Assembly: GCF_007995155.1 (NCBI RefSeq)
Contig: NZ_CP042593.1
Location: 228,001 to 292,000, forward strand
Origin: Cytobacillus dafuensis
Lineage (GTDB): Bacteria; Bacillota; Bacilli; Bacillales; Cytobacillaceae
Direction: 5' to 3'
Length of the DNA stretch: 64,000 bases
In this document: positions 3,243 to 19,671 of the stretch, one piece after another
How positions within the stretch are numbered: position 1 is the first letter of the stretch
How the letters are laid out: the number at the start of each line of letters is the position of its first letter
Notes under the pieces: generated by a model
Told to the model about the DNA's origin: nothing
Databases searched by the model: none
Seen by the model: only the letters and a program-made list of their open reading frames with translations
Program-made: the position numbers and the translations under genes

Positions 3243-3260
3243 TACGAAAGTAAAAGTATA

Positions 3261-3480
3261 AAAAAAATCCCTGCTGAATATTCAGCAGGGACGAGTTTAC
3301 TCGCGGTACCACCCTGATTGTAAGCAAAGAACTTACCACTTAACAGAATAACGGATAAACCGTCTTATTTCAGAAAAAGAAATAAGAAGCTCCAGAACCG
3401 TAATTCATGATCTCCTTTGTACTGGTTCGCAGCACCACCAGCTCTCTGCAACAGGGAAGATATCACTACTTCAATTCCTT
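3261..3480 (-). promoter_or_regulatory. T-box riboswitch leader of phhA-phhB, probably tRNA-Tyr type
   Basis: On the minus strand the leader shows the standard landmarks in order: the stem I base (GAAGUAG near 3472), the AGAGAG region with GGUGGUGCUGCGAACC (about 3447-3424), the T-box AGGGTGGTACCGCG at 3315-3302, and a terminator CCCTGCTGAATATTCAGCAGGG-type hairpin at 3290-3269 followed by a U run. The AGGG of the T-box can instead pair with the CCCU of the terminator arm to make the antiterminator. A UAC tyrosine codon at 3402-3400, within GAAUUACGG on the 3' side of stem I, is the best specifier candidate. This would switch on phenylalanine hydroxylation when tRNA-Tyr is uncharged. The specifier call is an inference. 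Confidence 0.92.
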
Positions 3481-3512
3481 CAAAGCATTTAAGTATAGAT
3501 ATGATGCTTTTT

Positions 3513-3542
3513 ATCTTAAACGCTTTTAAGCATTAAAGTCAA
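3513..3542 (-). promoter_or_regulatory. phhA promoter with embedded operator
   Basis: On the minus strand TTGACT (3542-3537) and TAAGAT (3518-3513) are spaced by 18 bases. The palindrome CTTAAAAGCGTTTAAG (3530-3515) sits between them and overlaps the -10 element, the classical place for a repressor. Transcription would begin near 3506, just upstream of the T-box stem I. Between here and the ugd stop at 3612 nothing else was seen. Confidence 0.6.
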
Positions 3543-3611: not shown

Positions 3612-4922
3612 TTATTTTAAAATAGCTCTGCCTACTGAATAATATTCAATATGATATTTAGAAACCATCTCTAAGGAAAAACAATTCCTTCCGTCAAAAA
3701 TAATTGGATGATTCATTAATATTTCATATTTTTCGAGAGGGAAGTCTTTGAATTCATCCCACTCAGTCGCGATAAAAACCATGTCTGAATTTGTTATGGC
3801 TTCCTCAATGGATGGAGCATAATGAATCTTTTCGCCCAAAACTTGCTTTGCTTCTTCCAGTACTAACGGGTCATAAGCCGTTACGATTGCGCCCTGCATA
3901 GTTAGCTCGGAAGCTATTTCAATGGCAATGGATCCACGTACATCGCTTGTATTCGGTTTAAAAGCTAACCCTAGTAATGCTATTTTTTTATCTTTTAAAT
4001 TGCCAAAACGTTGCAGTGCTTTATTCAGTAATAAATATTTTTGTTGTTTATTTACCTTTAGTACAGCTTCTAAAATATCAAGTGATTGTCCAGCTTCAGT
4101 AGCTTTTTCAATTAGACCACGAGTGTCTTTAGGGAAGCAAGAGCCCCCGAATCCAATTCCAGCTTTTAAGAATGGAGTTCCTATTCGTGAATCTAGTCCC
4201 ATTCCAAGTGATACATCTTCTATGTTGGCGCCAATATTTTCACATAAGTTTGCGATTTCATTAATGAAACTGATCTTGGTTGCTAAAAAAGCATTTGAGC
4301 TATATTTAATCATCTCAGCACTTAGTAGATCCGTCATAAAAATAGTTCTTCCGAAAGGTCGATGTATTTCCTCAATAATCGATGCTGCTTCTTTACTATC
4401 GGACCCGATCACAATCCGATCTGCATAAAAGGTATCATAAATTGCGGAACCCTCTCTTAAAAACTCAGGATTCGATACAATATTGATCATCACTTCATTT
4501 GTTAAATTCTCTTCAATTAACTGTTTAATGAATGTATTTGTGCCAACGGGAACAGTGCTTTTCGTGACTACGATTGTTTCTTGCTTCTTAATGTTTTCAG
4601 CAATCGTTTTTGCGGCCTCTTTGATATTGCTAAGGTCAACACTTCCATTTTGGGCAGTAGGGGTTCCTACTGTAATATAAATAACGTCGGCATCTGCTAA
4701 TGCTAATTTAGAATCATTTGTAAAGAATAATTGGTTGTTAGTAAGGTTTTTTTTCAATAAATCATTTAAATCAGGCTCATAAAAGGGGGATATCCCTTTT
4801 TTCATTTGTGCAATATTATGTTCATTAATATCATAACAAATAACTTGATGGCCTATTTCTGCTAGAGTCACGCCAGTAACCAGTCCTACATGCCCAGTCC
4901 CAACAATCGTTATATTCTTCAT
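3612..4922 (-). CDS. ugd: UDP-glucose 6-dehydrogenase
   Basis: A 436-residue enzyme that oxidises UDP-glucose to UDP-glucuronate with two NAD. It has the N-terminal Rossmann motif GTGHVG (residues 8-13), the central NPEFLREG segment (151-158), the catalytic cysteine in GFGGSCFPKD (C262), and a C-terminal UDP-binding domain. The start is set at 4922, not the longer frame at 4937, because GAGAGG lies 8 bases upstream. It is divergent from the Fur-regulated lipoprotein gene. With the UDP-glucuronate epimerase at 6487 it would supply UDP-GlcA and UDP-GalA to the glycosyltransferases of the same cluster. A role in teichuronic acid (as for TuaD) is an alternative. Confidence 0.94.
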   Translation of the reverse strand: MKNITIVGTGHVGLVTGVTLAEIGHQVICYDINEHNIAQMKKGISPFYEPDLNDLLKKNLTNNQLFFTNDSKLALADADVIYITVGTPTAQNGSVDLSNIKEAAKTIAENIKKQETIVVTKSTVPVGTNTFIKQLIEENLTNEVMINIVSNPEFLREGSAIYDTFYADRIVIGSDSKEAASIIEEIHRPFGRTIFMTDLLSAEMIKYSSNAFLATKISFINEIANLCENIGANIEDVSLGMGLDSRIGTPFLKAGIGFGGSCFPKDTRGLIEKATEAGQSLDILEAVLKVNKQQKYLLLNKALQRFGNLKDKKIALLGLAFKPNTSDVRGSIAIEIASELTMQGAIVTAYDPLVLEEAKQVLGEKIHYAPSIEEAITNSDMVFIATEWDEFKDFPLEKYEILMNHPIIFDGRNCFSLEMVSKYHIEYYSVGRAILK

Positions 4923-4970
4923 ATGTATTCCTCTCATTGCTGTATACTACTGTATTCACTTATATAAGAT

Positions 4971-5000
4971 ATTATAAGTTAAAAAATAAATGATAATCAA
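4971..5000 (-). promoter_or_regulatory. ugd promoter with partial Fur box
   Basis: On the minus strand TTGATT (5000-4995) and a perfect TATAAT (4976-4971) are spaced by 18 bases. The -35 region is overlapped by TGATAATCA (plus strand 4991-4999), the left arm of a Fur box; the right arm is poor. Co-regulation with the divergent lipoprotein by Fur is therefore plausible but not certain. Confidence 0.45.
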
Positions 5001-5107
5001 AAATTCGTTTAATGCAGTGTTTCTTTACTAAAAATGATATCCTAATTTAATTTTTACAGGCCGTTTTTTGCCTAATCAAAAAAGTGGTCTTTGGAAGAAA
5101 TTATTCA

Positions 5108-5162
5108 TTGACAATGATAATCGTTCTTATTATAATTCAATCGTGAATGAAAATCATTATCA
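5108..5162 (+). promoter_or_regulatory. sigma-A consensus promoter with Fur boxes
   Basis: A perfect TTGACA (5108-5113) and a perfect TATAAT (5131-5136) are spaced by exactly 17 bases. TGAAAATCATTATCA at 5148-5162 matches the Bacillus Fur box TGATAATnATTATCA with one mismatch and covers the initial transcribed region. A second, weaker box, TGACAATGATAATCG at 5109-5123, covers the -35. The arrangement predicts strong expression in low iron and tight repression when iron is replete. Confidence 0.88.
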
Positions 5163-5197
5163 ATTGTATATTACTCTAAAAGTCGGGGGAAATTATT

Positions 5198-6385
5198 GTG
5201 AAGAAAAAAGAACTAACAGCGATCTTTGCTAGTTTTTTATTGGCGGGTAATGTTTTAACAGCGTGCAGTACTAGTGATAAAGAGGCAAGTACTGAAGAGA
5301 AAAAACAGGAAGAATCAGTTGATAAAGAAGAAACAAAGAATGAAACAGAAGCTAAAGAAGTGAATTATGCAGAGGTTTTCGAAGAAGCTGTTACGGAATT
5401 GTCAAAAGCTAAAGAAGGAAAAGAAGTAGACTTTGATAAAGTGATTGAACTTTATCAAAACGACCTTCAAAGCTTAGTACAAGATAGAGATTCAGAAAAC
5501 GAAGATAAAATAGATCAGCATATTACTACCGCTTTACAAGCTGGTAAAGAAGGTACGATGGACAAGGTCGTTGTTAAGCAAATATTTGATAAATTAATGC
5601 AAAAAGTTTTCTACACATCGATTAAACATGACTTTAATGAGATAAATGAAAAATGGGGTAATAAAGAAGAAGTAGCAAAGGAAATGGAAGAGGCGAAGGC
5701 ATATTATTCAATTCTTCAATCTACAGTAGAAAAACGTGATAGTGCGTATGGCACAAATATGGTGAGTGTGATTGACGGTGGATTTGATGAGATCGAAAAA
5801 GCTATAGAAGCTGATGATCAACTAAGTTTCTTACTAGGTAAGCAAGTGGTTGATAAAACACTTATGAAAACTTTTTATCTAGCAACTGGTGCTATTCCAA
5901 ATGGATATGCAACAAAAGCGTCAGAGGCAGCTAAGACAAATAAGGAAGAAGCGGTTATCGAACAAGCAGAAGGTTGGGCTTTCTATCAGTCTCTATTCCC
6001 TTACTTGAATGGGCACGCTCCAGAAGAAGCAGCTTTCATTCAAGAGCAGTTTGATTTGCAAACGGATATTTCGACATTGAATGCTGCTGAAGTTAATAAG
6101 GCATTCATTCGTGGCTTCTCTAAAATCGCTCTTGATGAGTATGAGGAAAGTGTAGAAACTTGGGGAGAAGATAAATCTCCTGTAACAGCATTAGAAGGTG
6201 CACTATTTATAGACATCATTGGGGAAGATATTAAAGGGTTAATTGGAGAAGCAGAATACAGCAAACTTACCGAAAAAACTCAACAATATTTAGAAGCAGC
6301 TAAAGCAAAAGATAAACAAACTGGTGAGCCATTACTGAAAGAAATTCAAGCTACTTTACAAACAGTTATTGAAAAAGCAAAATAA
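5198..6385 (+). CDS. Fur-regulated lipoprotein with three-fold helical repeat, probable iron-uptake component
   Basis: A 395-residue secreted lipoprotein: signal peptide with lipobox LTAC (residues 20-23), then a charged Glu/Lys linker to about 55. The rest is helical and seems to hold three related units (about 104-205, 205-291 and 293-371). Each contains an AxxYY/AxxFY/AxxFI-type helix, for example AKAYYSILQSTVEKRD (166-181) and EGWAFYQSLFPYL (258-270). The same pattern occurs once in the FTR1 partner at 10788. I do not recognise a named family. Role in iron capture is inferred from the Fur promoter and the FTR1 genes downstream. The GTG start has GGGGGA 7 bases upstream. Confidence 0.75.
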   Translation: MKKKELTAIFASFLLAGNVLTACSTSDKEASTEEKKQEESVDKEETKNETEAKEVNYAEVFEEAVTELSKAKEGKEVDFDKVIELYQNDLQSLVQDRDSENEDKIDQHITTALQAGKEGTMDKVVVKQIFDKLMQKVFYTSIKHDFNEINEKWGNKEEVAKEMEEAKAYYSILQSTVEKRDSAYGTNMVSVIDGGFDEIEKAIEADDQLSFLLGKQVVDKTLMKTFYLATGAIPNGYATKASEAAKTNKEEAVIEQAEGWAFYQSLFPYLNGHAPEEAAFIQEQFDLQTDISTLNAAEVNKAFIRGFSKIALDEYEESVETWGEDKSPVTALEGALFIDIIGEDIKGLIGEAEYSKLTEKTQQYLEAAKAKDKQTGEPLLKEIQATLQTVIEKAK

Positions 6386-6402
6386 TGAATATTTTTGGGA
6401 GG

Positions 6403-6429
6403 AAGCCTTGTGAATTTTACAAGGTTTTT
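6403..6429 (+). terminator. weak terminator after the lipoprotein gene
   Basis: CCTTGT (6406-6411) pairs with ACAAGG (6419-6424), extendable with a G-U and A-U pairs, followed by TTTTT. The stem is short, so partial read-through into the epimerase gene at 6487 is likely. The lipoprotein may be made in excess over the rest of the cluster. Confidence 0.5.
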
Positions 6430-6486
6430 CCCTGTTTATCCCAGTATATAGTTTGTAAGAGGGATTCCTAACAATGAGGTGTTCAG

Positions 6487-7434
6487 ATGAAGATTATTGT
6501 AACGGGTGGTGCTGGTTTCATAGGGAGTCACCTTGCTAAGAGGCTCATTCAGGAAAATCATGAAGTATATGTGATTGATTGTATTCATCCCTATTATTCA
6601 CCTGAAAGAAAAAAGAAACAATTGGAGGATGTAGCGCGTGTTGGTTCCTTTCAATTTATTCAAAAGGACCTTTTAGATAGAGAAGAAATGATGGCTGTAT
6701 TTAAACAAATATCTCCACAAGTAGTTGTTCATTTAGCAGCTTTGCCAGGTGTTGCTTATTCAATTGAAGAGCCCCTTAAATATGTTGATTATGATATAAA
6801 AGCAACGATTAATGTGCTTGAAGCATCAGGTAAGTCAGGCGTTTCCAAAGTTGTATTTGCCTCATCTTCCTCTGTTTATGGCAATCAATCAGGGCCCTTT
6901 AAAGAAGAAATGGCAAACGGGGACGTTATTTCTCCTTATGCGGCTTCGAAATATTCAGCTGAATCTTTTTGCCGTGTGTATGAGTCCTTATTTGGTTTCC
7001 AGGTAAATATATTAAGATTTTTCACGGTATATGGTCCGTGGGGACGTCCAGACATGGCAATCGGCAGCTTTATCAAAAAGTTAATGCGTGGCGAGGAAAT
7101 CACTCTTTATGGAGAGGGAAGGGGGCGTGACTTCACTTACGTCGAAGACATCGTGAATGGGATTTATTTAACGATCAATAAGTTAACGAAAAGCGAGGTC
7201 ATAAATATTGGCTCAGGAAGAACGATTACGATGGACCAACTATTAGCCCAATTGAAATGGCACTTCCCTGATATGAAAATAATCAAAGCAACTTCTCGCG
7301 TAGGAGATGTCGTAAATACGTGGGCAGATATCGAAAAAGCCAAGCGATTATTGGGCTATGAACCACAAGTGGATTTTATCAAAGGACTATCAGACACGGT
7401 GAAGTGGGCTAAGGGAAATGAAACGATTCTTTAG
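6487..7434 (+). CDS. UDP-glucuronate 4-epimerase (NAD-dependent SDR epimerase)
   Basis: A 315-residue extended short-chain dehydrogenase. It has the NAD motif GGAGFIG (7-13), the serine run ASSSSVYG (125-132), and the catalytic YAASK (Y151, K155). RFFTVYGPWGRPDM (177-190) is the hallmark that separates UDP-glucuronate epimerases (CapI/GAE type) from UDP-galactose epimerases. The predicted reaction is UDP-glucuronate to UDP-galacturonate, following directly on the ugd product. The next gene starts within its last codons (17-base overlap), so it heads a tightly packed operon. Confidence 0.85.
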   Translation: MKIIVTGGAGFIGSHLAKRLIQENHEVYVIDCIHPYYSPERKKKQLEDVARVGSFQFIQKDLLDREEMMAVFKQISPQVVVHLAALPGVAYSIEEPLKYVDYDIKATINVLEASGKSGVSKVVFASSSSVYGNQSGPFKEEMANGDVISPYAASKYSAESFCRVYESLFGFQVNILRFFTVYGPWGRPDMAIGSFIKKLMRGEEITLYGEGRGRDFTYVEDIVNGIYLTINKLTKSEVINIGSGRTITMDQLLAQLKWHFPDMKIIKATSRVGDVVNTWADIEKAKRLLGYEPQVDFIKGLSDTVKWAKGNETIL

Positions 7435-8344
7435 AATTGGTTTTGCTGTTTTCATCCTCATTCTTTTTGCTTCCTTAACCTTTCAATATTTTGATTGGAA
7501 ACAAGTAGGGAAAGGTTTATTAGAATTACTTAAGCATCCTTATTTACTTGTCACCATTTGGGGTGTTTATTTCCTTTCTTTTTGTTTAAAAGCAAGGGCA
7601 TGGCAGCTTTATTTAAATGGAAGGGTCCTTTTTTCTACATGTCTTATAGGCATATTGTATAGCTTATTAGTGAATCATCTACTTCCAATAAAAGCAGGTG
7701 ATCTAGTAAGGGCAAAAATTTTAAGTAGGGATCATACGGTAAGCGATGAGGAAGCATTTCATTCTGTTTTTGTATTAAGAGCTTTGGATATGCTTTGCTT
7801 GATAGCGATTACTTTGATCGGCCTGCTAAGCCTAAAAGTAGGCTTTAAAATTCCTGTGTGGAGTATTGTAGCCGGAAGTGTTTTTTGTATCCTTGCACTA
7901 TTCGTTTTATATAAATATTTTCCTGATTTTTTAAAGAGGAATTTCACTTTATTTAAAAAGGCTTTTTCAGGTAGAAATGGTTTGGCCATTATTATATTAA
8001 CCTTTTTGAGCTGGGTTTTAGAGGGTGGAATGCTTTATGGAACGGTCCTTGTGTTAAAAGGAGACCTATCCGTATTGGAATCTGTTTTTGCAAATGGGAT
8101 TACAATTGTAGGGCAGTTTTTCCAAATTACACCTGGTGGTATCGGTAATTATGAAAGTTTTCTTGTATTTGCTCTTAGTTTATTTGGGTTTCCTCTGAAA
8201 GAAGGGTATACGATTGCAGTTATTACCCATTTTATGAAATTCTTATTTTCTTATTTAGCTGGAGCAGTTGTAATATTAATTTTTCCTGTTTCTTTAAAAA
8301 CAATAAAAGAATGGGTTAGGGTAAGAGGAGTGAGAGGCAAGTGA
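7418..8344 (+). CDS. flippase-like membrane protein (UPF0104 / LPG synthase TM family)
   Basis: A 308-residue polytopic protein with about seven to eight transmembrane helices across its whole length. Near the C-terminus TPGGIGNYESFLVFAL (about 242-257) is the conserved PGGxGxxE segment of the AglD_N/UPF0104 family, which includes the membrane half of lysylphosphatidylglycerol synthases. There is no catalytic MprF-type C-terminal domain. Stand-alone members are thought to move or modify lipid-linked products. It overlaps the epimerase by 17 bases and the next gene by 4. Here a role in flipping a lipid-linked sugar is plausible but inferred. Confidence 0.8.
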   Translation: MKRFFRIGFAVFILILFASLTFQYFDWKQVGKGLLELLKHPYLLVTIWGVYFLSFCLKARAWQLYLNGRVLFSTCLIGILYSLLVNHLLPIKAGDLVRAKILSRDHTVSDEEAFHSVFVLRALDMLCLIAITLIGLLSLKVGFKIPVWSIVAGSVFCILALFVLYKYFPDFLKRNFTLFKKAFSGRNGLAIIILTFLSWVLEGGMLYGTVLVLKGDLSVLESVFANGITIVGQFFQITPGGIGNYESFLVFALSLFGFPLKEGYTIAVITHFMKFLFSYLAGAVVILIFPVSLKTIKEWVRVRGVRGK

Positions 8345-9801
8345 AAAGTGCATCTAAATTTGAAAAAATGGCTGCACGCTGCTGGAACTTATTAAATGAA
8401 GGAAAGCCATTTACACCCATTTTTGTATTTGGAACCATGATTTTATTCCATGCTGCGATGTTGGGATCGGCAAATGTAGTAATGGATCTTTTGTTAGCGT
8501 TTATTTATGTGATCCCGTTATTAATAATCTATTTTATTTTTGATTTTCCGCTCTTTTTAAGGAATTATTTGTGGATTCCTTTTATGGTTTATTTGATCAT
8601 TTGGAATGATATTAATATAAGTTTACTTTTATTTTCAATAGGCCTCTATTTCTTTTTTACAGTGTTCTTCTGGGGAACATTATATTACCACTTAAGAATA
8701 GGGACTTCTTGGCTGAATTTTACTCGCTTTTGGAAACTTGTTTTAAAAAATAGTGATTCTACTAGTGGGAATGCCCAAGAACAGCTGCCGAAGTTCTTAT
8801 TGATTTTATCGATTTGGGAAATGATTTTTCAAGCCGAACGAGCAAATGAGGCTATTAATTTCGTAGCTCTTATTCTCTTTTATGCTTTTATTCTTGTGTT
8901 TGCCTACATTCTTCATCGGTATTTATTTGATTGGAAACCAAAAGTATATGAAACCCTTTCAAAGGATCAGGGGACACAGCCAGGAGAGGCCATTTCTGAT
9001 AAAGTCATTGTCATTGTAGTGGATGGGATGAGAAAGGAACGCTTTTATGAAGCGGATACTCCCTTTTTAGATTCTTTAAAAGAAAATGGCACAGAATATA
9101 TGAATATGGAAACGGTCTATCCGGCAAGAACCGTTGTTTGCTTTAGTTCAATGTTTACAGGAACCTATCCTTTTGAACATGGGATGACGTCCAATATGGT
9201 TTGGAAGTTAGGGATTAAAGTAGAAAGTATCTTTGATTCGTTAAGAAAAGTAGGTAAAAAGGGGAGACTTCTTGGAATCGCACATTTGGTAGATTCCATG
9301 GGGGACGATGTAGAAACCGTAACGGCGGTCATGCATAAAGATAAAGCTGACCCTAACATTATGGAAAGAGCAAAGAAAATCATGAAAGAGCAGGATCCTG
9401 ATTTATTCGTTGTTCAAATGATAGGGACAGACCAAGTCGGTCACAGTCAGGGAGTTTTATATGATGAATATTTGCAAAAAATCCATGAAGCGGATGTGTT
9501 AATTGAAGATTTTGTCTCTTGGTTAAAAAAGGAGGGCAAGATGGAGAATACGACTTTATTCATCTGTGCTGATCATGGCCAAGCGGATGGGATTGGAGGA
9601 CATGGACATTTAGATGAGGGTGAAAGATTTGTACCATTTATTGTTCATGGTCCCCACATTGAAAAGGGGAAAAAAATCGAAGAAAAACATAGCCTCGTTT
9701 CCTTGGCACCAACTTTATCATACTTGTTGGGAGCTCCTTTTCCTAGTCACAGCAGGGGAAGAGTATTGTTAGATGCAATTAGAAAGAAGGAAGAGGAATA
9801 A
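8341..9801 (+). CDS. membrane-anchored alkaline phosphatase superfamily enzyme
   Basis: A 486-residue protein. The first ~195 residues hold five or six membrane helices. From ~220 it is a type I phosphodiesterase/nucleotide pyrophosphatase domain with visible metal ligands: VVDG (D228), the likely nucleophile T264 in YPARTVV, GTDQVGHS (D364, H368), ADHG (D411, H412) and GGHGH (421-423). Such membrane forms transfer or remove phospho-head groups at the outer face. The substrate is unknown. A role in decorating the envelope glycan or lipid made by the neighbours is inferred. The GTG start overlaps the previous stop by 4 bases. Confidence 0.82.
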   Translation: MKSASKFEKMAARCWNLLNEGKPFTPIFVFGTMILFHAAMLGSANVVMDLLLAFIYVIPLLIIYFIFDFPLFLRNYLWIPFMVYLIIWNDINISLLLFSIGLYFFFTVFFWGTLYYHLRIGTSWLNFTRFWKLVLKNSDSTSGNAQEQLPKFLLILSIWEMIFQAERANEAINFVALILFYAFILVFAYILHRYLFDWKPKVYETLSKDQGTQPGEAISDKVIVIVVDGMRKERFYEADTPFLDSLKENGTEYMNMETVYPARTVVCFSSMFTGTYPFEHGMTSNMVWKLGIKVESIFDSLRKVGKKGRLLGIAHLVDSMGDDVETVTAVMHKDKADPNIMERAKKIMKEQDPDLFVVQMIGTDQVGHSQGVLYDEYLQKIHEADVLIEDFVSWLKKEGKMENTTLFICADHGQADGIGGHGHLDEGERFVPFIVHGPHIEKGKKIEEKHSLVSLAPTLSYLLGAPFPSHSRGRVLLDAIRKKEEE

Positions 9802-9803
9802 AC

Positions 9804-10589
9804 ATGAAAAAACAGAAAGTCATAGTATTTCTGCCGGCCTATAATGAAGAAGAATCGATTGGGAAAGTGATCGAAAGCATCCCTAGATCCTTTCATTATC
9901 AGGTCGAGGTAAAAGTGTTAGTTATCGATGACGGATCAAGAGATCAAACTGTCGATGTGGCGAAAAAAGCAGGAGCTGACTATATTGTCAGTTTTGATAA
10001 AAACCGCGGTCTAGGAGCGGCGGTTCGGGCAGGATTAAAGGAAAGTTATGAAAGAGGTGCAGATATCGCGGTCATGATCGATGCAGATGGAGAATACCCT
10101 GCTAACCAGATACCCGATTTATTGGCACCAATATTTAAAGGCGAAGCTGATTATACAATGGGTTCCCGTTTTCTAGGAACGATACAAGGTATGAAAATAC
10201 ATCGTCGTCTAGGTAATTATCTTTTTACCTTCATTCAAAGTTTGTTACTCAGAAAATGGATTCATGATGGACAGTCAGGTATGAGGGCTTTTACGAGGCA
10301 AGCTCTAGAACATGCAGAAATCGTCCATAATTATAATTATGCACAGGTTTTAACTTTAAACCTTGTCAGAAAGGGCTTTAGAGTGAAGGAAGTTCCGATT
10401 CAATATCAAGTTCGTTCGACGGGAGAATCGTTTATTACCTTTAAAGGCTATCTTTCATCTGTCATACCAGCCATATGGAAAGAAGCGAATAGAAAGATTC
10501 AGCATGTAAAGATCGATGAAAATGCTCATAGGTTGAATAATATGGATGCTTATCAAAATGAGGAAAATATTGATAATGCGGTTTTTTAA
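9804..10589 (+). CDS. family 2 glycosyltransferase, polyprenyl-phosphate sugar synthase type
   Basis: A 261-residue GT-A glycosyltransferase without membrane helices. It shows PAYNEEE (11-17), DDGS (42-45) and the metal-binding DADG (93-96), followed by GSRFLG and the DGQSGMRAF segment typical of dolichol-phosphate mannose synthase-like enzymes. It would load a sugar from a nucleotide donor onto polyprenyl phosphate at the inner face. A GT-C enzyme such as the one at 12787 could then use that carrier outside. It follows the phosphatase-like gene by 2 bases. A mobile repeat separates it from the FTR1 genes. Confidence 0.86.
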   Translation: MKKQKVIVFLPAYNEEESIGKVIESIPRSFHYQVEVKVLVIDDGSRDQTVDVAKKAGADYIVSFDKNRGLGAAVRAGLKESYERGADIAVMIDADGEYPANQIPDLLAPIFKGEADYTMGSRFLGTIQGMKIHRRLGNYLFTFIQSLLLRKWIHDGQSGMRAFTRQALEHAEIVHNYNYAQVLTLNLVRKGFRVKEVPIQYQVRSTGESFITFKGYLSSVIPAIWKEANRKIQHVKIDENAHRLNNMDAYQNEENIDNAVF

Positions 10590-10600
10590 AAAATTGAAAT

Positions 10601-10760
10601 TGTCGCAGATTAACGGGCTGTAAGACCCCCACTTCAAGAAGTTGAGTTAAGAATAAATTTCTAAGTGGGGGATCAAAAGTCCGTAAAAGCCCGATTGGTT
10701 CAACTAACCATCAGTGGGGGATGAAAGAAAACCCCCCACTGATTGAAGTTTCACTTTATC
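10601..10760 (+). repeat. bcr1-like short mobile repeat, copy 1
   Basis: A 160-bp element that begins TCGCAGATTAACGGGC and ends GAAGTTTCACTTTATC. It holds two strong hairpins: CCCCCACTT with AAGTGGGGG, and CAGTGGGGG with CCCCCACTG. It is nearly identical to the copy at 61632 and shares both ends with the copy at 12541. It fills the gap between the GT2 and FTR1-partner genes; without it they would be about 38 bases apart. The likeness to bcr1 of the B. cereus group is from memory. Confidence 0.75.
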
Positions 10761-10787
10761 CATTCAGATGATGTAGGGGGATCCTAA

Positions 10788-11543
10788 ATGAAAAAGCTTT
10801 TCATTTATTGTTTATTATTACTATTTAGTCTTACTCAATCGTTTCCGTTGACTGCCAAGGCATATACATACGGAGACCCGAATGAAGAAGCATTGGCAGA
10901 AGTCTATAAAAAAATGCTCATTGAACTTGACAAAAATCCTCCAGATTATGCCATAGCGGAAAAGCATTATAATACAGTTAAAGAAGAAGTCGACATGCAT
11001 ATGGGACCAGAGCCGTCAAAAGTTATTCTTCAAGATCTTGAAAATGAAGATAAAGATAAAGTCATTAAAGATATGGACCAACTGCTCGTATTAAATATTG
11101 CCAGACGCTTGGATAATACGGATAAAAACTTTTCGGAGTACGAAACGAGCAAGCGTTTATTAGCAAAGGGATTTGCAACATATGAAGCATTATCACCAAA
11201 AATTGAAGCAAGAAACCCTGAAACGGATAAAGAAATTAAATCGGAATTTGATAAGGCTCTAAATTCATTAGGAAATCCAGGACTTTTTGGCGTTGGACAA
11301 AAAGAGGCAGATAAGAATGCATTTGATGCTAGTAAAGATAAGATTTTTTCTTTATTGCAAAAAGAATTTGGCTTAAAGAGTTTAAAAGTTGGTCATTTTA
11401 ATGAGAATTCCACGAATACTAGCACCCAAAATAATGATTGGACAGATGTCTCCAACTTGAAAAATTGGCTGCCTCTAGTGGTTATCGTTGTTATTCTTGG
11501 CGCTGTTGTTATTTTTACGGTTCGCAAAAAGAAAAAATCATAG
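10788..11543 (+). CDS. membrane-anchored extracytoplasmic partner of the FTR1 permease
   Basis: A 251-residue protein with a signal peptide (about 1-26), a helical outer domain and one C-terminal membrane helix (about 225-245) followed by a KKKK cytoplasmic tail. The outer domain matches one repeat unit of the Fur-regulated lipoprotein at 5198: a KxxLAKGFATYEALSPKIEAR-like helix is followed by a second helix with FDKALNSL. It lies 38 bases before the FTR1 gene. An accessory iron-binding or oxidase-docking role is inferred; no metal motif is obvious. Confidence 0.75.
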   Translation: MKKLFIYCLLLLFSLTQSFPLTAKAYTYGDPNEEALAEVYKKMLIELDKNPPDYAIAEKHYNTVKEEVDMHMGPEPSKVILQDLENEDKDKVIKDMDQLLVLNIARRLDNTDKNFSEYETSKRLLAKGFATYEALSPKIEARNPETDKEIKSEFDKALNSLGNPGLFGVGQKEADKNAFDASKDKIFSLLQKEFGLKSLKVGHFNENSTNTSTQNNDWTDVSNLKNWLPLVVIVVILGAVVIFTVRKKKKS

Positions 11544-11581
11544 GTGTTTGTTGTTTCATGGTTGGGAGAGGAGAATAGTCT

Positions 11582-12502
11582 ATGGAAATACAAGCATTAT
11601 TAATTACCTTCCGTGAGGTTTTAGAGGCATTGCTTATCGTTGGTATCATAACAACGTATTTAAAAAGAGTGGGACGCAGCCAATTTACAAAGTATGTATG
11701 GCTAGGGGCTGGTCTTGCTGTACTTGCTAGTGTTGGCGTAGCGATGCTGTTCCAGGTTGTGTTTACAGGCTTTGCTTCAATGGGTAGCGAAATGTATTTG
11801 AAGATTGGGATTATGCTCGTTTCTGCTTTGTTGTTAACCCAAATGGTTTTTTGGATGTCTAAACAAAGTAGAGATATGAAAGCGAATATGGAAGGGAAGC
11901 TAGACCGTTTTATCACAACGGGGAATGTAGTAGGTATGGTTATTCACTCCTTTCTCGTTGTCCTTCGTGAGGGAATTGAGACCGTTTTTTTCTTTGCAGC
12001 CATTACCGGTGGAAATATTGGTGCTGCAATGGAAGGCTGGGGTGCCATTACTGGGGTTATCATTGCAGTCGTTGTTTCATATATCTTCTTTAAAGGAACG
12101 ATGAAGATTTCCCTTAAAATGTTCTTTAAAGTAACGGGTGTTTTCATCATATTTATTGCAGCCGGCCTATTAGTTCAAGCGATTTCGATGATGCAAGATT
12201 TAAATATTATCGGAAGTGTTAACCCGCATTTATATGATTTAACTTGGTTTTTGCCAGAACATCCAATCGATTATGATCACTACTTGCGTGATCACGGAGT
12301 AGCGCCCGTTCTGTCAGGAGATATTGGTGTTTTCCTTAAAGCATTATTCGGATATTCTTCTATGCCATCTGTAGAAGAAGTTATTGCCTATATCGGATAC
12401 TTTGTTGGTATATATTTATTAACTTCATATAAATCAAGTGGGAAAAATGAGAGCTTCAACAAGGAAGATCAGGTACAAGAATTGAAAGTAGAAGCAAAAT
12501 AA
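11582..12502 (+). CDS. FTR1 family high-affinity iron permease
   Basis: A 306-residue membrane protein with seven predicted helices and the two diagnostic iron-binding REXXE motifs in helices: REVLE (residues 11-15) and REGIE (129-133). The family (yeast Ftr1p, EfeU) moves iron across the cytoplasmic membrane, usually with an oxidase or periplasmic partner. No EfeB peroxidase or multicopper oxidase gene lies in the window. The C-terminal tail after ~285 is charged and cytoplasmic. Its partners appear to be the anchored protein at 10788 and the lipoprotein at 5198. Confidence 0.93.
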   Translation: MEIQALLITFREVLEALLIVGIITTYLKRVGRSQFTKYVWLGAGLAVLASVGVAMLFQVVFTGFASMGSEMYLKIGIMLVSALLLTQMVFWMSKQSRDMKANMEGKLDRFITTGNVVGMVIHSFLVVLREGIETVFFFAAITGGNIGAAMEGWGAITGVIIAVVVSYIFFKGTMKISLKMFFKVTGVFIIFIAAGLLVQAISMMQDLNIIGSVNPHLYDLTWFLPEHPIDYDHYLRDHGVAPVLSGDIGVFLKALFGYSSMPSVEEVIAYIGYFVGIYLLTSYKSSGKNESFNKEDQVQELKVEAK

Positions 12503-12540
12503 TATGACTCATAAGGTGTCTGGCATCCACATAATACCTT

Positions 12541-12708
12541 TATCGCAGATTAACGGGCAGTAAGACCCCCACTTCAAGTTTGCGAGAGAATCAAAGAAAC
12601 CTAAGTGGGGGATGAAAGCCGACTAAGAACGCCACGTCCTGTGGCAACGTCGGCACTAGCACGTCCTGTGCGTCGAAAAACCCCCACTGATGGAAGTTTC
12701 ACTTTATC
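12541..12708 (+). repeat. bcr1-like short mobile repeat, copy 2, with TTTAT flanks
   Basis: It has the same ends as copies 1 and 3 and the CCCCCACTT/AAGTGGGGG hairpin. The middle instead carries a duplicated ACGTCCTGTG motif with nearby complementary bases. TTTAT stands at both borders (12539-12543 and 12703-12707), as expected for target duplication of bcr1-type elements. It lies between the FTR1 and GT-C genes. Related GGTGTCTG(A/G)CA words at 12514 and 12747 flank it. Confidence 0.7.
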
Positions 12709-12786
12709 TAGAATCTCATTCGCTTATTGATACTAGATATTGTTCGTGGTGTCTGACACCTTTGCTTAAGAAAACGGTGACAAGGT

Positions 12787-14274
12787 ATGGATAAAAAAGA
12801 GGAAAAGGATAAAATTTTCAAATTAATCAATATTGGAATAGCTCTTACTAGCTTATTTTCGATCATGTTTTTACTTTGGACTCAATTAAACCACATCAAT
12901 TCCTTTGCTTCTACATGGGATCAGGTAGATTTTGCGCTCGCGTTAGATCGATACGATTTGATGGCTATGCAGCCGCATTTTCCAGGTTATCCCTATTTTA
13001 TTCTAGGCGGTTATTTTATTCATCAATTTGTTGACAATAAGGTGGCTTCACTGACTGTTTTTAATATTTTGTTTTACTTCAGTGCCCTGTATCCAATATA
13101 TAAACTGTCCAGGATACATGTTTCAAGATTATCTAGTTTAGTGATTGCTTCAATCATATACTCTTCGACGTATGTAATGGTGATGGTGAATCAACCCATA
13201 TCAGAAGGAGCAGCCCTAGCTGCTTTATGGTGGTATTTATGGAGTCTTCATTTGGCGATGAAAGGTAAGGGAGTAGGAATAAATATTTTGCCGCCACTGC
13301 TTTTAAGTATATTGTTAGGCATTCGATTATCCTATCTGCCATTCGCAGTGGGTTTACTGCTTCTCTTTTATAAAAAATGGAAAAATGGTGATTTTACATT
13401 TAAACAAATCGTTCGTTATTCCATATTTGCGATAATGTGTCAGCTCATTTGGGTAGGAGCACTTGTTTTTTCTGAAGGCAGTGTAAAGGGATTTGTAAAA
13501 TTGTCTTTAGCTTTTACAAGCGGCCATTTTAACGATTGGGGTAACTCGGCTGTCGCCAGTGATGTATCTTTTCTTGAAAGGATAAAAACATTAATCTTTC
13601 ATAATGTATTATGGACGGGTATTTCCGCTCAAAAGATTTTGTTAGCCGTGTTATACGGAATCGTTGTTAGCTTGTTTATTTATCAGTGGAAAAGGGGTAA
13701 ATTCAAACAGGAATTCACTCTTCACTTAGTATGGATCATGGGGATTTGTTATTTGATCTGGGCCGTTGTTGCACAAAACATTGATAAACCTAGACATATC
13801 CTTCCTTTAGTGATATTTTTTCTTTTTATTCTATTGATCCATGTATTAAAAGATACTAGAAACTCTTTACTATACATTATTTGTTATCTACTCATCATTT
13901 CACAAACGTATTATTCATCTAGGTTGATTGAACAACAAGCGAAGGAACTCCCAGCTACGTATCAATTAGGTAACTATTTGCAGTCTCTTGATGACTCAGC
14001 CGTTGTTTATGCCTGGGAAGAGACGAGGGTGTTACAGTACATGAATGTGACTATACCTTCCAAAAAGGTGCAAACTTATCAAGTTTTTCTACATGACAAG
14101 TCCTATTACCATAACAGAAAGATTTTAATAACGAATAAGGTAGTTGAAGGGTTTGCTGCTCAAGGGATAGACCTTACCGGTAAGATAAAAAAAATAAAAG
14201 AATTTCATTCTAATTCTATTTTTGATCCGGTTTATAATCATATTGTTTTGTATGAGTGGAGAAATGAATACTAA
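12787..14274 (+). CDS. GT-C type membrane glycosyltransferase
   Basis: A 495-residue protein with about ten to twelve membrane helices and a short soluble C-terminus. The first outer loop contains TWDQVDFALAL (about 38-48), the acidic loop expected in GT-C enzymes that use polyprenyl-phosphate sugars, followed by PHFPGYPYF. It fits the GT39/ArnT-like superfamily, but no exact family is recognised. It is the last gene of the cluster and is followed by a strong terminator. It is the natural acceptor-side partner of the GT2 enzyme at 9804. Confidence 0.75.
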   Translation: MDKKEEKDKIFKLINIGIALTSLFSIMFLLWTQLNHINSFASTWDQVDFALALDRYDLMAMQPHFPGYPYFILGGYFIHQFVDNKVASLTVFNILFYFSALYPIYKLSRIHVSRLSSLVIASIIYSSTYVMVMVNQPISEGAALAALWWYLWSLHLAMKGKGVGINILPPLLLSILLGIRLSYLPFAVGLLLLFYKKWKNGDFTFKQIVRYSIFAIMCQLIWVGALVFSEGSVKGFVKLSLAFTSGHFNDWGNSAVASDVSFLERIKTLIFHNVLWTGISAQKILLAVLYGIVVSLFIYQWKRGKFKQEFTLHLVWIMGICYLIWAVVAQNIDKPRHILPLVIFFLFILLIHVLKDTRNSLLYIICYLLIISQTYYSSRLIEQQAKELPATYQLGNYLQSLDDSAVVYAWEETRVLQYMNVTIPSKKVQTYQVFLHDKSYYHNRKILITNKVVEGFAAQGIDLTGKIKKIKEFHSNSIFDPVYNHIVLYEWRNEY

Positions 14275-14569: not shown

Positions 14570-14580
14570 TTGACACGTTC
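14570..14580 (+). promoter_or_regulatory. downstream copy of the TTGACACGTTC word
   Basis: An exact 11-base copy of the word in the promoter at 14418, 152 bp downstream and about 13 bases before the ribosome binding site. A central CG is common in LacI-family operators. Likely an auxiliary operator or roadblock; unproven. Confidence 0.4.
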
Positions 14581-14608
14581 AAATATGTTAACAAGGAGAT
14601 GTACATGG

Positions 14609-15679
14609 ATGAAGAAAATTTGGTTGTTAGTCGTTGCCCTTGTTTTAAGTACTGCTTTAACAGCTTGTGGTGGTAATAAGGAATCTTCCAAAGGAGCTTC
14701 AGAAGCAAAAGATTCAAAAGATAAATCTTTAGTCGTTTATACAAACTCTGCTTCCGAGGGACGTGGAGATTGGTTAACTGAAAAAGCTGCCGAAGCTGGA
14801 TTTGACATTGAAATTGTGGAAGCAGGCGGTGGAGATATTTTCAACCGTTTAATTGCTGAAAAGAACAAACCTATAGCTGATGTTGTTTATGGATTAAATC
14901 AAATGGACTTTGAGAAATTACAAACAAATGATTTACTCGTTCCGTTTGAACCAGCATGGATCAATGAAATTCCGGAAGGCTCTAGTGACGTAGATAATTT
15001 CTATCATCCATTGGTTGAACAAAGAATTATTATGATTTATAACAAAGATGTTTATACAGAAGAAACGGCACCAAAAGATTGGACAGATTTAATTGAAAAT
15101 GAGGATTTTAAAGGAAAGTATCATGTTCCAACTAATTTGGGCGGAGGTACTAACCGTTCAGTAGTATATGGAATGTTAATGAGACATTTAGACCAAAATG
15201 GTGATTTAGGTATATCAGATGAAGGTTGGAAAGAAATTAAAACTTTCTATGACAATGGATATAAAACTCCTGAAGGCGAAGATGACAAGGCGAACCTTGC
15301 ATCAGGAAAAGTGCCAATTTCATTCACATTCTCAAGTGGATTACCAGGATATGAAGAGGCATTTGGTTTTGACGCTGGTATCGTTTCTCCAGAAATCGGA
15401 GTACCAACTACAGTTGAGCAAGTAGGAATTATTAATAAAGGAAAAGATCAAGATACAGCAGTTGCACAAGAATTTATAGATTGGTTTGGTAGTGCAGAGG
15501 TTCAAGGTGCTTGGGCTGAAGAATTTGGTTCTTTACCTGTAAATACAAAAGCTCTTGAAAAAGCTACAGACGAAATGAAACAAATTGCTGAAGACACAAC
15601 TATTCAGGAAATGGATTATAACTTCATTTCCGAGCATATTGAAGATTGGGTAGAGAAAATTGAGTTAGAAATTTTCTAA
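14609..15679 (+). CDS. ABC importer solute-binding lipoprotein
   Basis: A 356-residue lipoprotein with signal peptide and lipobox LTAC, then an extracellular solute-binding family 1 domain of the FbpA / 2-aminoethylphosphonate / polyamine-like subgroup (LVVYTNSASEGRGDWL near the start). The start at 14609 has AAGGAG 10 bases upstream; the longer frame from 14570 lacks one and would spoil the signal peptide. It heads an operon with ATPase, fused permease and a glycerophosphodiester phosphodiesterase. This suggests a phosphodiester or phosphonate ligand; ferric iron is the main alternative. A large hairpin separates it from the ATPase gene. Confidence 0.88.
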   Translation: MKKIWLLVVALVLSTALTACGGNKESSKGASEAKDSKDKSLVVYTNSASEGRGDWLTEKAAEAGFDIEIVEAGGGDIFNRLIAEKNKPIADVVYGLNQMDFEKLQTNDLLVPFEPAWINEIPEGSSDVDNFYHPLVEQRIIMIYNKDVYTEETAPKDWTDLIENEDFKGKYHVPTNLGGGTNRSVVYGMLMRHLDQNGDLGISDEGWKEIKTFYDNGYKTPEGEDDKANLASGKVPISFTFSSGLPGYEEAFGFDAGIVSPEIGVPTTVEQVGIINKGKDQDTAVAQEFIDWFGSAEVQGAWAEEFGSLPVNTKALEKATDEMKQIAEDTTIQEMDYNFISEHIEDWVEKIELEIF

Positions 15680-15724
15680 TTGGGAATAGGGAAAAACTAG
15701 ACACCCATATTGAAAATCGTATCC

Positions 15725-15798
15725 ACCTTGATTAGCCTCTGGTTAATCAAGGTAGGACTGAGCGGAGGATTCCCCTTCATCCGCTCAGTCCTACCTTG
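15725..15798 (+). promoter_or_regulatory. overlapping competing hairpins between binding-protein and ATPase genes
   Basis: ACCTTGATTA (15725-15734) pairs with TAATCAAGGT (15744-15753). The last bases of that arm also begin a perfect 19-bp arm, CAAGGTAGGACTGAGCGGA (15748-15766), which pairs with 15780-15798 around a 13-base loop. No T-run follows, so this is more likely an RNA stabiliser or processing element that raises binding-protein yield than a full terminator. Confidence 0.7.
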
Positions 15799-15891
15799 AA
15801 AAGATAAGGCGTAAGACTTTCATTTTTTACCCTATGAACCGTCGAACCAAATTTAGGATTTGGCGGTTTATATTTTGAAGGAGGAAGTCAG

Positions 15892-16923
15892 TTGATTAAC
15901 TTTCAAGATATCCAAGTAAAATTTGGTGATTTTGTAGCGATAAAGAACTTAAATTTAGAAGTAAAAAAAGGTGAGTTTTTTACTTTTTTAGGACCTTCTG
16001 GTTGCGGGAAGACTACGACATTAAGGACACTAGTAGGATTTATTACACCTACTAAAGGGAAAATTATTGTCGATGATGAGGATATTACGAATATCCCCAT
16101 TGAAAAACGACAAATTGGAATGGTATTTCAAAGCTATGCTTTATTCCCGACCATGTCTGTTTATGAAAATATTGCATTTGGATTAAAGGTTCAAAAGTAT
16201 AAAAAGGAAGAGATTAAAAAGAGAGTTGAAGAATTAGCTAGGGTTGTAGATTTAAAAGATGAACAGCTTATAAAAAATGTATCCGAATTATCTGGCGGGC
16301 AGCAGCAGCGTGTGGCCATCGCACGAGCATTGGCACTTGCCCCTAAAATTATCGTTTTAGATGAACCCTTGTCAAACTTGGATGCAAAGCTGCGAAAACA
16401 ATTAAGAAAAGAACTAAAAAAATTACAGCTTGAACAAGGGATAACAATGGTTTATGTGACCCATGATCAAGAAGAAGCGTTAACACTGTCTGATCGCATT
16501 GCTGTTTTTAATAATGGAGTGGTCGAACAAGTGGGTACACCAGAGGAAATTTATAATCAGTCGAAAACAGAGTTTGTATGTAATTTTATCGGTGATGCCA
16601 ATAGGATTAGTCAAAAAGTGATGGAAGAAATAGCGAAAAAAACGGATATGAAAGTAGATCCGGCAAAAAAATATTACATTCGAACAGAAAAAATTAAAAC
16701 AAAAGTGTTGAATACGGATACTCATTCCGTTGGACTAAAAGCAAAAGTGGCATCCAAAGAATTTTATGGAACACACTCTCAATATAAATATGAAATATTG
16801 GATTCAACCTTTATCAATATTGAAAAAGAGGATGGCAATTTTCAATATAACGAAGGGGACGAGGTAACATTATTCATTAACCCAAAAGACATACTGCAGT
16901 ATGAGGGTAATCATCATGAATAA
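15892..16923 (+). CDS. ABC importer ATPase
   Basis: A 343-residue nucleotide-binding subunit of the PotA/FbpC/MalK type. It has Walker A GPSGCGKTT (about residues 35-43), signature LSGGQQQRVAIARAL, Walker B with IIVLDEP, and the switch histidine in YVTHDQEEA. A C-terminal ~100-residue domain of TOBE type follows. It starts at TTG with GAAGGAGGAAG upstream. It overlaps the permease gene by 8 bases. Confidence 0.93.
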   Translation: MINFQDIQVKFGDFVAIKNLNLEVKKGEFFTFLGPSGCGKTTTLRTLVGFITPTKGKIIVDDEDITNIPIEKRQIGMVFQSYALFPTMSVYENIAFGLKVQKYKKEEIKKRVEELARVVDLKDEQLIKNVSELSGGQQQRVAIARALALAPKIIVLDEPLSNLDAKLRKQLRKELKKLQLEQGITMVYVTHDQEEALTLSDRIAVFNNGVVEQVGTPEEIYNQSKTEFVCNFIGDANRISQKVMEEIAKKTDMKVDPAKKYYIRTEKIKTKVLNTDTHSVGLKAKVASKEFYGTHSQYKYEILDSTFINIEKEDGNFQYNEGDEVTLFINPKDILQYEGNHHE

Positions 16924-18631
16924 ATTTTTTAAGGATCATGTTCAAAATAAATTATCCTTATGGATTGTTGGAATTATTCTCGCTTGGTTCATAATTGCTT
17001 TTCTCATCGTTCCAAATGTAAATATTCTCTATACGACCTTTTTTGCTGATGGTGCCTTTTCATTAGAACCCTTTCAAAAATTATTATCATCGGAAAGAGC
17101 GATGAAAAGTTTATTAAATAGCTTTTTATTAGGGATTACATTGGTGGTCACGGTGAACATTGTCGGGGTTTTCATCGTCTTGGTTACCGATTATTTTGAC
17201 ATCAAAGGCGCAAAAGTATTAAAACTTGGTTATTTTACTACTATGATCTATGGCGGACTCATTTTAGTATTCGGATATCAATTTATATATGGAAATTCAG
17301 GATTTTTAACGAAATTCTTAGTGGGAATCTTTCCAAATATGAATCCAGATTGGTTTATTGGTTATCCGGCTGTCGTGTTTGTGATGACATTTGCCTGTAC
17401 AACCAATCATATTCTCTTTCTTTCGAATGCAATTAGAGGCATAGATTATCAAACCATTGAAGCGGCAAAAAATATGGGTGCTTCACCTTGGAAAATTCTC
17501 ACGAAAATTGTTTTTCCTATTTTAAAGCCTATACTAACGACTTTATCCGTATTGTTATTTGCCTCAGGACTTGGAGCGATGTCTGCACCGTTAATATTAG
17601 GTGGAAAAGATTATCAAACGATAAGCCCCATGATTCTCACATTTGCTAATAGTATGAGTTCAAGAGATCTTGCTGCATTATTAGCGATATTTTTAGGAAT
17701 TACACAAATTGCTTTACTTTATGTGATTACGAGATCTGAGAAAAAAGGCTTCTATATGTCTATTTCAAAAGTAAAAACGAAAATCGTGAAGCAAAAAATT
17801 ACGAATAAATTTGCCAACTTTATTGTCCACTTTTTTGCCTATGTTCTATTTATCATCTATGTGCTGCCAGTTGGAACCGTCATTCTCTTTTCCTTTACCG
17901 ATACATATAGTATCAGCACTGGAACACTATCATTGGAACATTTTACTTTAGAACATTACATGAGAATCTTAACAGACGTTTCAGCTTATAAACCATTTAT
18001 GATTAGTTTTATCTATTCAGGATTAACGGCTATCATTGTTGTGGCTGCCATGTTATTGATTGCTCGATTAATCCACAAATATAATAATAAATTAACCACT
18101 TCTTTAGAATATTTACTTCATATTCCTTGGTTAATACCCGCTATCCTCATGGCTTTAGGTTTAATTATCACTTATGATAAACCGCTGCCTATTATGGGGA
18201 ATATTGTTTTAACAGGTACTCTGATCTTGTTACTAATTGCTTATATCATTGAAAAAATCCCTTTTACGTTGAGGATTTTGAAGGCGGCTTATTATTCATT
18301 TGATAGTTCACTCGAGGATGCAGCAAAAAATTTAGGAGCAAGAACGACCTATACCTTCATTAGAGTCATATTACCGATTGTTTTACCGACGACTATGGCG
18401 ATACTTGCATTAAATTTTAATAGTCTATTAGCAGAATATGATTTAACCGTATTTTTATATCATCCGCTTTTTCAACCGTTGGGTATTGTCATTCGAAATA
18501 GCACAGATCCAACAGCGTCTGTAGATGCAAGGGCGATGAACTTCGTTTATTCCGTTATCTTAATGTGTATATCTGCTACTGTTATTTACTTCGTTTACGG
18601 TAGAGGAAGTAACAAGAAAAATATTTTATAG
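16916..18631 (+). CDS. ABC importer permease, fused two-domain (FbpB/ThiP-like)
   Basis: A 571-residue membrane protein made of two tandem BinPD-type permease domains with about twelve helices. Each half has an EAA loop: TIEAAKNMGASPWKIL in the first half and SLEDAAKNLGARTTYTF in the second. Fused permeases are typical of ferric-iron, thiamine and some phosphonate importers. The start is put at 16916 because GAGGGT lies 7 bases upstream. It is followed within 10 bases by the phosphodiesterase gene. Confidence 0.92.
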   Translation: MNKFFKDHVQNKLSLWIVGIILAWFIIAFLIVPNVNILYTTFFADGAFSLEPFQKLLSSERAMKSLLNSFLLGITLVVTVNIVGVFIVLVTDYFDIKGAKVLKLGYFTTMIYGGLILVFGYQFIYGNSGFLTKFLVGIFPNMNPDWFIGYPAVVFVMTFACTTNHILFLSNAIRGIDYQTIEAAKNMGASPWKILTKIVFPILKPILTTLSVLLFASGLGAMSAPLILGGKDYQTISPMILTFANSMSSRDLAALLAIFLGITQIALLYVITRSEKKGFYMSISKVKTKIVKQKITNKFANFIVHFFAYVLFIIYVLPVGTVILFSFTDTYSISTGTLSLEHFTLEHYMRILTDVSAYKPFMISFIYSGLTAIIVVAAMLLIARLIHKYNNKLTTSLEYLLHIPWLIPAILMALGLIITYDKPLPIMGNIVLTGTLILLLIAYIIEKIPFTLRILKAAYYSFDSSLEDAAKNLGARTTYTFIRVILPIVLPTTMAILALNFNSLLAEYDLTVFLYHPLFQPLGIVIRNSTDPTASVDARAMNFVYSVILMCISATVIYFVYGRGSNKKNIL

Positions 18632-18640
18632 AAGAGGTTA

Positions 18641-19474: not shown

Positions 19475-19497
19475 TTTCTGCTTATAAAAAGGTACAT

Positions 19498-19540
19498 GCT
19501 GCTTCAAGCTCGGAATAAACCCGTTTTGAAGCAGCTTTTT
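19498..19540 (+). terminator. terminator of the importer operon
   Basis: GCTGCTTCAA (19498-19507) pairs perfectly with TTGAAGCAGC (19526-19535), followed by TTTTT. Confidence 0.88.
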
Positions 19541-19593
19541 ATATAGAGATGAATTAATTCTAAAAAGGCAAGAATTGTTAATTTTAAGTATAG

Positions 19594-19618
19594 TTTTTAT
19601 AAAAATATTTTATAAAAA
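19594..19618 (+). promoter_or_regulatory. AT palindrome upstream of the LacI-fusion regulator gene
   Basis: Eleven bases TTTTTATAAAA, a 3-base centre, and the exact inverted copy TTTTATAAAAA. It lies about 55 bases before the regulator start. It could be an operator or simply AT-rich promoter DNA. Confidence 0.35.
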
Positions 19619-19671
19619 GCAGTATTTGATAAAATAACATTAACCTTTTTTGTTTTTGTAGGAGTGAAAAT

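Follow-up and report, generated by a model that had tools for sequence, protein, structure and literature searches.

A cluster of nine genes, in which genes for iron uptake stand beside genes for glycan synthesis, was analysed in a 64,000-nucleotide stretch of Cytobacillus dafuensis DNA (the window: positions 228001-292000 of a 4.92-Mb single-contig genome, NZ_CP042593.1). Three of the genes code for a short iron permease (FTR1), its constant partner (FTRN) and a lipoprotein (LIP), and the others for candidate glycan enzymes: a UDP-glucose dehydrogenase (UGD), an epimerase (EPI), a flippase-like protein (FLP), a phosphodiesterase (PDE) and two glycosyltransferases (GT2 and GTC). The two groups are linked on the chromosome, occur together across genomes and are accompanied by Fur boxes. 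On balance we lean towards reading the cluster as a Fur-controlled iron uptake system in which FTR1, FTRN and LIP are paired with their own surface-glycosylation pathway, whose product would be an acidic glycoconjugate.

Co-occurrence was determined in a first set made up of the window's own genome and 100 relatives (101 genomes), which was searched for PDE, LIP and FTR1 at orthologue-level thresholds of >740 bits, >100 bits and, for short FTR1, >290 bits. Orthologues of all three were found in exactly the same 23 genomes; the remaining FTR1 matches scored below 81 bits and were mostly open frames of 490-720 residues, and weak PDE matches (<60 bits) in 55 more genomes presumably represent other superfamily members. 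Loci of 17-20 kb from the 22 relatives (L086-L107) had the same gene order with few exceptions: LIP of G080 lay on a separate contig, three loci were without EPI, and a fourth kept a 36-codon EPI remnant. PDE of L096 (8914-10367) is interrupted close to its end. Among the 80 most similar of 215 stretches with PDE relatives, all from species-representative genomes, FTRN and GT2 were present in every locus, FTR1 and GTC in 79, LIP in 76, FLP in 75 and EPI in 74, and the full gene order was identical in 68. The sole locus without FTR1 (L145, 9.1 kb) stops after FTRN. Because these 80 loci are closest relatives, 299 genomes sampled evenly from the class were searched as well; PDE was found in 52 and FTRN in 49, both being present in 48, and the single FTRN-only genome is fragmented, its LIP and FTRN sharing a contig of 4.7 kb. 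All of these genomes are related by descent, and the counts are not independent events. The initial annotation had tied FTR1 to the sugar genes, an idea that sugar genes without FTR1 in most relatives would have refuted. The opposite was found (23 of 23 genomes in the first set; among the 299, FTRN in 48 of the 52 with PDE), and the neighbourhoods of the FTR1 homologues form a conserved unit of sugar genes and permease with Fur boxes.

Four of the 299 genomes (G172, G206, G236, G237) contained PDE-only proteins and were considered as cases of sugar genes without FTR1. These proteins are 33-35% identical to PDE and lack at least two metal ligands, no Fur box of at least 12/14 was found within 20 kb around each of the four genes, and the genomes carry long FTR1 only (three) or no FTR1 (G236). 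On these grounds the candidates were rejected; this divergent paralogue (L190-L193), from genomes without short FTR1, may be a pseudoenzyme that serves a different role.

The strongest case for a functional tie comes from rearranged clusters. In distant genomes (L204-L207, L209) the order is shuffled, yet LIP, FTRN, FTR1, GTC, PDE and GT2 remain together, some of these loci being without EPI, FLP or both. In five further genomes the cluster is split into a sugar piece, with PDE-GT2 plus EPI, FLP, a UGD-like gene or GTC, and an iron piece, with FTRN plus LIP (not detected in G385), FTR1 or GTC; in two of the five, FTR1 lies at a third place. A 13/14 Fur box was found at the 5' end of the sugar module in four of these genomes (L194, L196, L200 and L202; not L198), and boxes were found at the FTRN piece in 5/5 and at the lone FTR1 in 2/2. 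PDE and GT2 were neighbours in every locus examined in which both were found (22 relatives, 80 loci and the distant set). In two distant genomes LIP (L199, 7313-8815) or both LIP and FTRN (L197, 7425-10272) end in a copper-amine-oxidase-N domain (PF07833) that might serve for wall binding. In the two split genomes that belong to one family, a fatty-acid desaturase-like gene adjoins LIP-FTRN (L195, 10548-11453; L197, 10412-11311).

Fur boxes were scanned with one 15-base consensus over the stretch from -200 to +80 of each gene; a score of at least 12/14 was taken as strong, and genes whose upstream stretch ran off a contig end were left out of the counts. In the window, the promoter at 5108-5136 matches its consensus at 12/12 with a 17-base spacer; of the 29 promoter-like sites in 12 kb, fewer than the 41 of shuffled sequence, no other matches in full. 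A Fur box of 11/14 overlaps this promoter, and a second, TGAAAATCATTATCA, scores 13/14 at 50 bases upstream of LIP, a score reached by 0/200 shuffles. This is the arrangement described in the initial annotation, a consensus promoter covered by Fur boxes ahead of a lipoprotein gene. UGD, which had been described as divergent with a partial Fur box, is divergent and has the 11/14 box as its best site; with p 0.14, that box is not significant as UGD's own.

Strong boxes were found upstream of LIP in 69/76 fetched loci (21/22 in the first set of relatives) and upstream of FTRN in 78/80 (22/22), where they score at least 13/14, and 0 or 1 ahead of each other cluster gene, UGD excepted. The control genes etfA, trxA, uvrC and lysC gave 2/198 (0/63 in the first set). 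Seven of 14 UGD-like genes had a strong box, all seven being divergent and sharing the LIP intergenic region. EPI genes reached 11/14 in 21/74 cases over the whole stretch and in 4/74 when it ended at +10; just one attained 12/14, and the 11/14 sites were not counted as Fur boxes. The FTRN box of L096, which is the same stretch as L142, scores 14/14. With predicted boxes that lie at the promoter and are kept in relatives, the cluster is a probable member of the Fur regulon.

Terminator-like hairpins were found between LIP and EPI in 54/71 loci and in the window (about 6400-6430), between FTR1 and GTC in 49/77 and between GT2 and FTRN in 22/78; shuffled intergenic stretches (LIP-EPI and FTR1-GTC pooled) contained them in 4/139 cases. 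The same scan found none at the EPI-FLP, FLP-PDE, PDE-GT2 and FTRN-FTR1 junctions. EPI and FLP overlap by 17 bases, FLP and PDE by 4, and PDE and GT2 are separated by 2, so that the coordinates bear out the gene set and spacing first described. A single operon behind the LIP promoter, as that description implied, is not supported: relatives carry another Fur box ahead of FTRN, and LIP and FTR1 often have a hairpin behind them. The ancestral plan was likely Fur promoter-LIP-hairpin-EPI-FLP-PDE-GT2-Fur promoter-FTRN-FTR1-hairpin-GTC, from which we infer that the enzymes would be made at lower levels than the iron proteins. The pre-FTRN Fur box of the relatives is missing in the window, where a repeated element sits instead; FTRN and FTR1 may here be transcribed by read-through that starts at the LIP promoter, or from an undetected promoter.

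Families were assigned using Pfam and NCBIfam profiles. FTR1 belongs to PF03239 (143.7 bits vs. a curated cut-off of 25.3), and its two REXXE motifs (R11, E12, E15 and R129, E130, E133) are at least 90% conserved in 23 sequences; against the EfeU equivalog it scored 203.6 bits, below the cut-off of 255. FTRN begins with a signal-like segment and has a single hydrophobic stretch at its C-terminus. When its profile was compared with four long FTR1 proteins the probability was 4%, which does not support FTRN as the split-off N-terminal part of a long FTR1. Profile comparison of FTRN with LIP gave an hhalign probability of 92.9 (E 3.6e-7), and the two are apparently related. No Pfam family was matched by FTRN or GTC at E 0.01, nor by LIP over the family's cut-off. 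The LIP model is all-helical (pLDDT 88.5); Foldseek found no match to it in PDB at E<=0.001, and the VIA rows covered mostly residues 295-395, resembling generic helical bundles; kinship with imelysin-type proteins is possible. NF038033, the FEA1-related lipoprotein family, was matched at E<=0.01 by 19 of 23 LIPs. The window LIP scored 31.1 bits and three distant LIPs 34 to 49, against a membership cut-off of 250. Sequence searches of PDB with LIP and FTRN gave no relevant match.

The glycan genes were assigned by Pfam as LPG_synthase_TM (FLP), Phosphodiest (PDE), Glycos_transf_2 (GT2), epimerase (EPI) and UDP-glucose dehydrogenase (UGD). Arg187 of EPI, the candidate carboxylate-binding residue, aligns with residue 185 of 6zl6, which we take to be the UDP-glucuronate 4-epimerase of B. 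cereus, and the motif FTVYGPxxRPDM is present in 17 of 18 aligned rows (L092 being the exception; L103, with no open reading frame kept, was not aligned). By its residues EPI is of the UDP-glucuronate 4-epimerase type, as first proposed. A UGD-like gene is part of the cluster in several lineages, which together with the EPI residues fits a uronic acid. UGD was rejected as a core member, tblastn having found none in the 20-kb loci of the 22 relatives; linked in 14 of the 80 loci, it is an optional one. In an alignment of 20 of the 23 PDE sequences D228, T264, D364, H368, D411, H412, H421 and H423 are invariant, which places PDE in the NPP/alkaline phosphatase superfamily; by analogy with NPP enzymes these are presumably the metal ligands and the Thr nucleophile. 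The GTC model has a predicted GT-C fold over the whole protein and is ArnT-like. These family and fold matches agree with the flippase-like protein, phosphatase-type enzyme, polyprenyl-sugar GT2 and GT-C transferase of the initial annotation.

The pathway could run as follows. UGD would make UDP-glucuronate and EPI would convert it to UDP-galacturonate. GT2, perhaps anchored through the membrane part of PDE, would put the uronic acid onto undecaprenyl phosphate, and FLP would assist in flipping the loaded lipid over. Outside the membrane GTC would transfer the uronic acid onto a lipid, teichoic acid or protein. The residues, families and folds described above point to the donor sugar, the polyprenyl route and the GT-C transfer. 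The acceptor and the last two steps are conjecture: PDE might trim the product or add a phosphodiester to it, and the acidic product might aid LIP and FTRN in holding iron close to FTR1.

Several observations weigh against this reading. Because of the hairpins between LIP and EPI, the LIP promoter can serve the sugar genes only by read-through. Among the 20 loci that are rearranged or distant, strong boxes preceded only 5/10 LIP and 4/11 FTRN genes, partly because another gene often comes first, and no strong box was found for the sugar module of G157 or for L208, a whole cluster of standard order. EPI is not in the cassette in 3/22 relatives and is a remnant in one more, and EPI and FLP are missing from several distant clusters; galacturonate is therefore not always provided locally. 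TuaD-type UGD is modestly enriched, in 21/23 genomes with the cassette vs. 52/78 without (p 0.03). No database match of PDE predicts its reaction, Foldseek ranks ALG12 above ArnT for GTC, and GTC too gave no relevant match in sequence searches of PDB. A loss of uronate supply without EPI was considered and rejected, since G050, G084, G069 and G090 each have another FTVYGPxxRPDM epimerase and a nucleotide-sugar dehydrogenase elsewhere; the dehydrogenases of G050 and G084 are just 29-33% identical to UGD and may act on another substrate.

The uronic acid might instead go onto LIP or FTRN themselves and affect their stability or iron binding, a parallel being the glycosylation of adhesins by Pgf in Streptococcus mutans. 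GT2 matches PgfS weakly (67 bits, cut-off 500), the two candidate acceptors are both predicted to be extracytoplasmic in addition to their apparent kinship, and in 3/5 split genomes GTC shares a place with FTRN and FTR1 while PDE and GT2 are elsewhere. In the other two it accompanies PDE, however, and the spacers of LIP and FTRN are without a conserved Ser/Thr site by eye; we regard protein glycosylation as unlikely, if the most serious alternative. Still less likely is envelope remodelling in iron limitation, in which the glycan would replace or alter teichoic acids and be merely co-regulated with FTR1, as PhoP-controlled teichuronic acid is made under phosphate limitation. The TuaD-like UGD would suit such a role, as would the presence of envelope phosphotransferases in the superfamily of PDE and the Fur box of the separate sugar genes in 4/5 genomes. 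The tie is specific to one FTR1 type, however, the longer FTR1 being found also in genomes without the sugar genes, and co-regulation alone leaves the shared presence and absence unexplained.

In the window FTRN-FTR1 is flanked on both sides by similar repeated elements, some 160 bases long and containing inverted repeats (the second was identified by eye). At least 43 matches to the first (about 10600-10760) are listed in the genome; as no more than 40 of the 223 candidates were scored, its copies could exceed this number. In most relatives the cassette lies between etfBA-trxA and uvrC-lysC (trxA in 50/80 and uvrC in 55/80 loci). The window copy sits elsewhere on the chromosome, and the cassette has therefore moved or been acquired; no plasmid-borne copy was matched at E 1e-30 in a plasmid collection. 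That an FTR1 operon was inserted by chance next to unrelated sugar genes in this genome, as the flanking elements and the different chromosomal place might suggest, can be dismissed, given the co-occurrence in the 101- and 299-genome sets and a gene content and order that relatives share; in the seven relatives inspected, the element between GT2 and FTRN is absent.

The features of the cluster are collected in Table 1. On the 3' side of GTC (14570-21843) the translations suggest ABC transporter genes (binding protein, ATPase and permease), a gene resembling those of glycerophosphodiester phosphodiesterases, and a regulator of LacI type, one part of which resembles a binding protein. On the other side (3260-3540, minus strand) the leader of a phenylalanine-hydroxylase-like gene resembles a T-box with a strong terminator hairpin.

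Table 1. Features of the iron and glycan gene cluster (positions in the window)
Feature	Position	Strand	Description
UGD	3612-4937	-	TuaD-like UDP-glucose 6-dehydrogenase, divergent from the other eight genes; optional member
Consensus sigma-A promoter and overlapping 11/14 Fur box, then 13/14 Fur box	5108..5165	+	
LIP	5198-6385	+	Lipoprotein, Cys23 invariant; helical throughout in model; weak kin of FEA1-related lipoproteins
Terminator-like hairpin, LIP/EPI gap	6401..6429	+	Comparable ones in 54/71 relatives
EPI	6487-7434	+	UDP-glucuronate 4-epimerase-type; Arg187, Thr180
FLP	7418-8344	+	LPG_synthase_TM / flippase-like membrane protein
PDE	8341-9801	+	Membrane-anchored alkaline-phosphatase-superfamily phosphodiesterase; metal ligands and Thr264 conserved
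GT2	9804-10589	+	Transferase resembling polyprenyl-phosphate sugar synthases; hydropathy shows no membrane helix
Repeated element 1	10600..10760		Occupies site of the relatives' pre-FTRN Fur box
FTRN	10788-11543	+	Secreted domain and C-terminal membrane helix; constant FTR1 partner
FTR1	11582-12502	+	Short iron permease, two REXXE motifs
Repeated element 2	12545..12715		Between FTR1 and GTC; similar to element 1 by eye
GTC	12787-14274	+	GT-C membrane glycosyltransferase, predicted fold ArnT-like

The cluster was compared with known systems. EfeUOB (YwbLMN) shares with it an FTR1-family permease, extracytoplasmic partners and iron control; it differs in that here a short FTR1 is combined with a separate FTRN, which by profile shows no kinship with the N-terminal portion of long FTR1, and with a dedicated glycan pathway. 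Among the nine cluster genes, the part of the genome searched, no Pfam match to M75 (EfeO) or DyP (EfeB) was found. Green-algal FEA1-FTR1 and the NF038033 lipoproteins likewise place a secreted iron-assimilation protein alongside FTR1, although the window LIP (31 bits) and the distant LIPs fall far below the cut-off of that family. The tua genes of Bacillus subtilis are alike in the resemblance of UGD to TuaD and in the control of an acidic envelope glycan by nutrient limitation; they are unlike in having PhoP instead of Fur and a polymerising pathway, and are not known to include FTR1. ArnC-ArnT, which handles undecaprenyl-phosphate-L-Ara4N, resembles GT2 in sequence and GTC in its GT-C fold, and differs in its other sugar enzymes and its lipid A acceptor; it is not known to have an iron link.

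In rhizobia, RgtE makes polyprenyl-phosphate-galacturonate, the GT-C transferases RgtA-D and RgtF transfer galacturonate, and LpsL is the epimerase. We know of no link between Rgt and FTR1 or Fur, and its acceptor is Gram-negative lipid A or LPS core. With a UDP-glucuronate epimerase, a GT2 polyprenyl loader and a GT-C transferase it is the closest system by enzyme set (functions of Rhizobium RgtD, RgtE and RgtF in galacturonate transfer: PMC7663294). In Klebsiella, Fur also links envelope polysaccharide with iron acquisition, through separate loci that make a capsule polymer and are not known to include an FTR1-linked glycan cassette. Since Fur governs both capsule and iron uptake there, a Fur-glycan link as such is already known (Fur/RyhB; PMC3423075).

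The initial annotation knew of no described system of this make-up, and a literature search, made mostly in open-licence texts that were available in part and that leave subscription journals mostly uncovered, likewise found no description of an FTR1-glycan cluster. Relatives of PDE, present in 215 stretches in species-representative genomes, are now named merely "alkaline phosphatase family protein" or "sulfatase", names that a function in this pathway would explain. More tentatively, this may be an iron-uptake machine of a new class in Bacilli: FTR1 would have, as an obligatory extracellular part, a uronic-acid glycoconjugate built for it by polyprenyl-dependent transfer, which would act as a sugar-based iron receptor that Fur calls up on demand. 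In known FTR1 systems the helpers are oxidases, peroxidases or helical iron-binding proteins; iron capture with the aid of an entire glycan pathway, bound to FTR1 by shared presence, gene order and Fur boxes, would, if the reading is true, be new.

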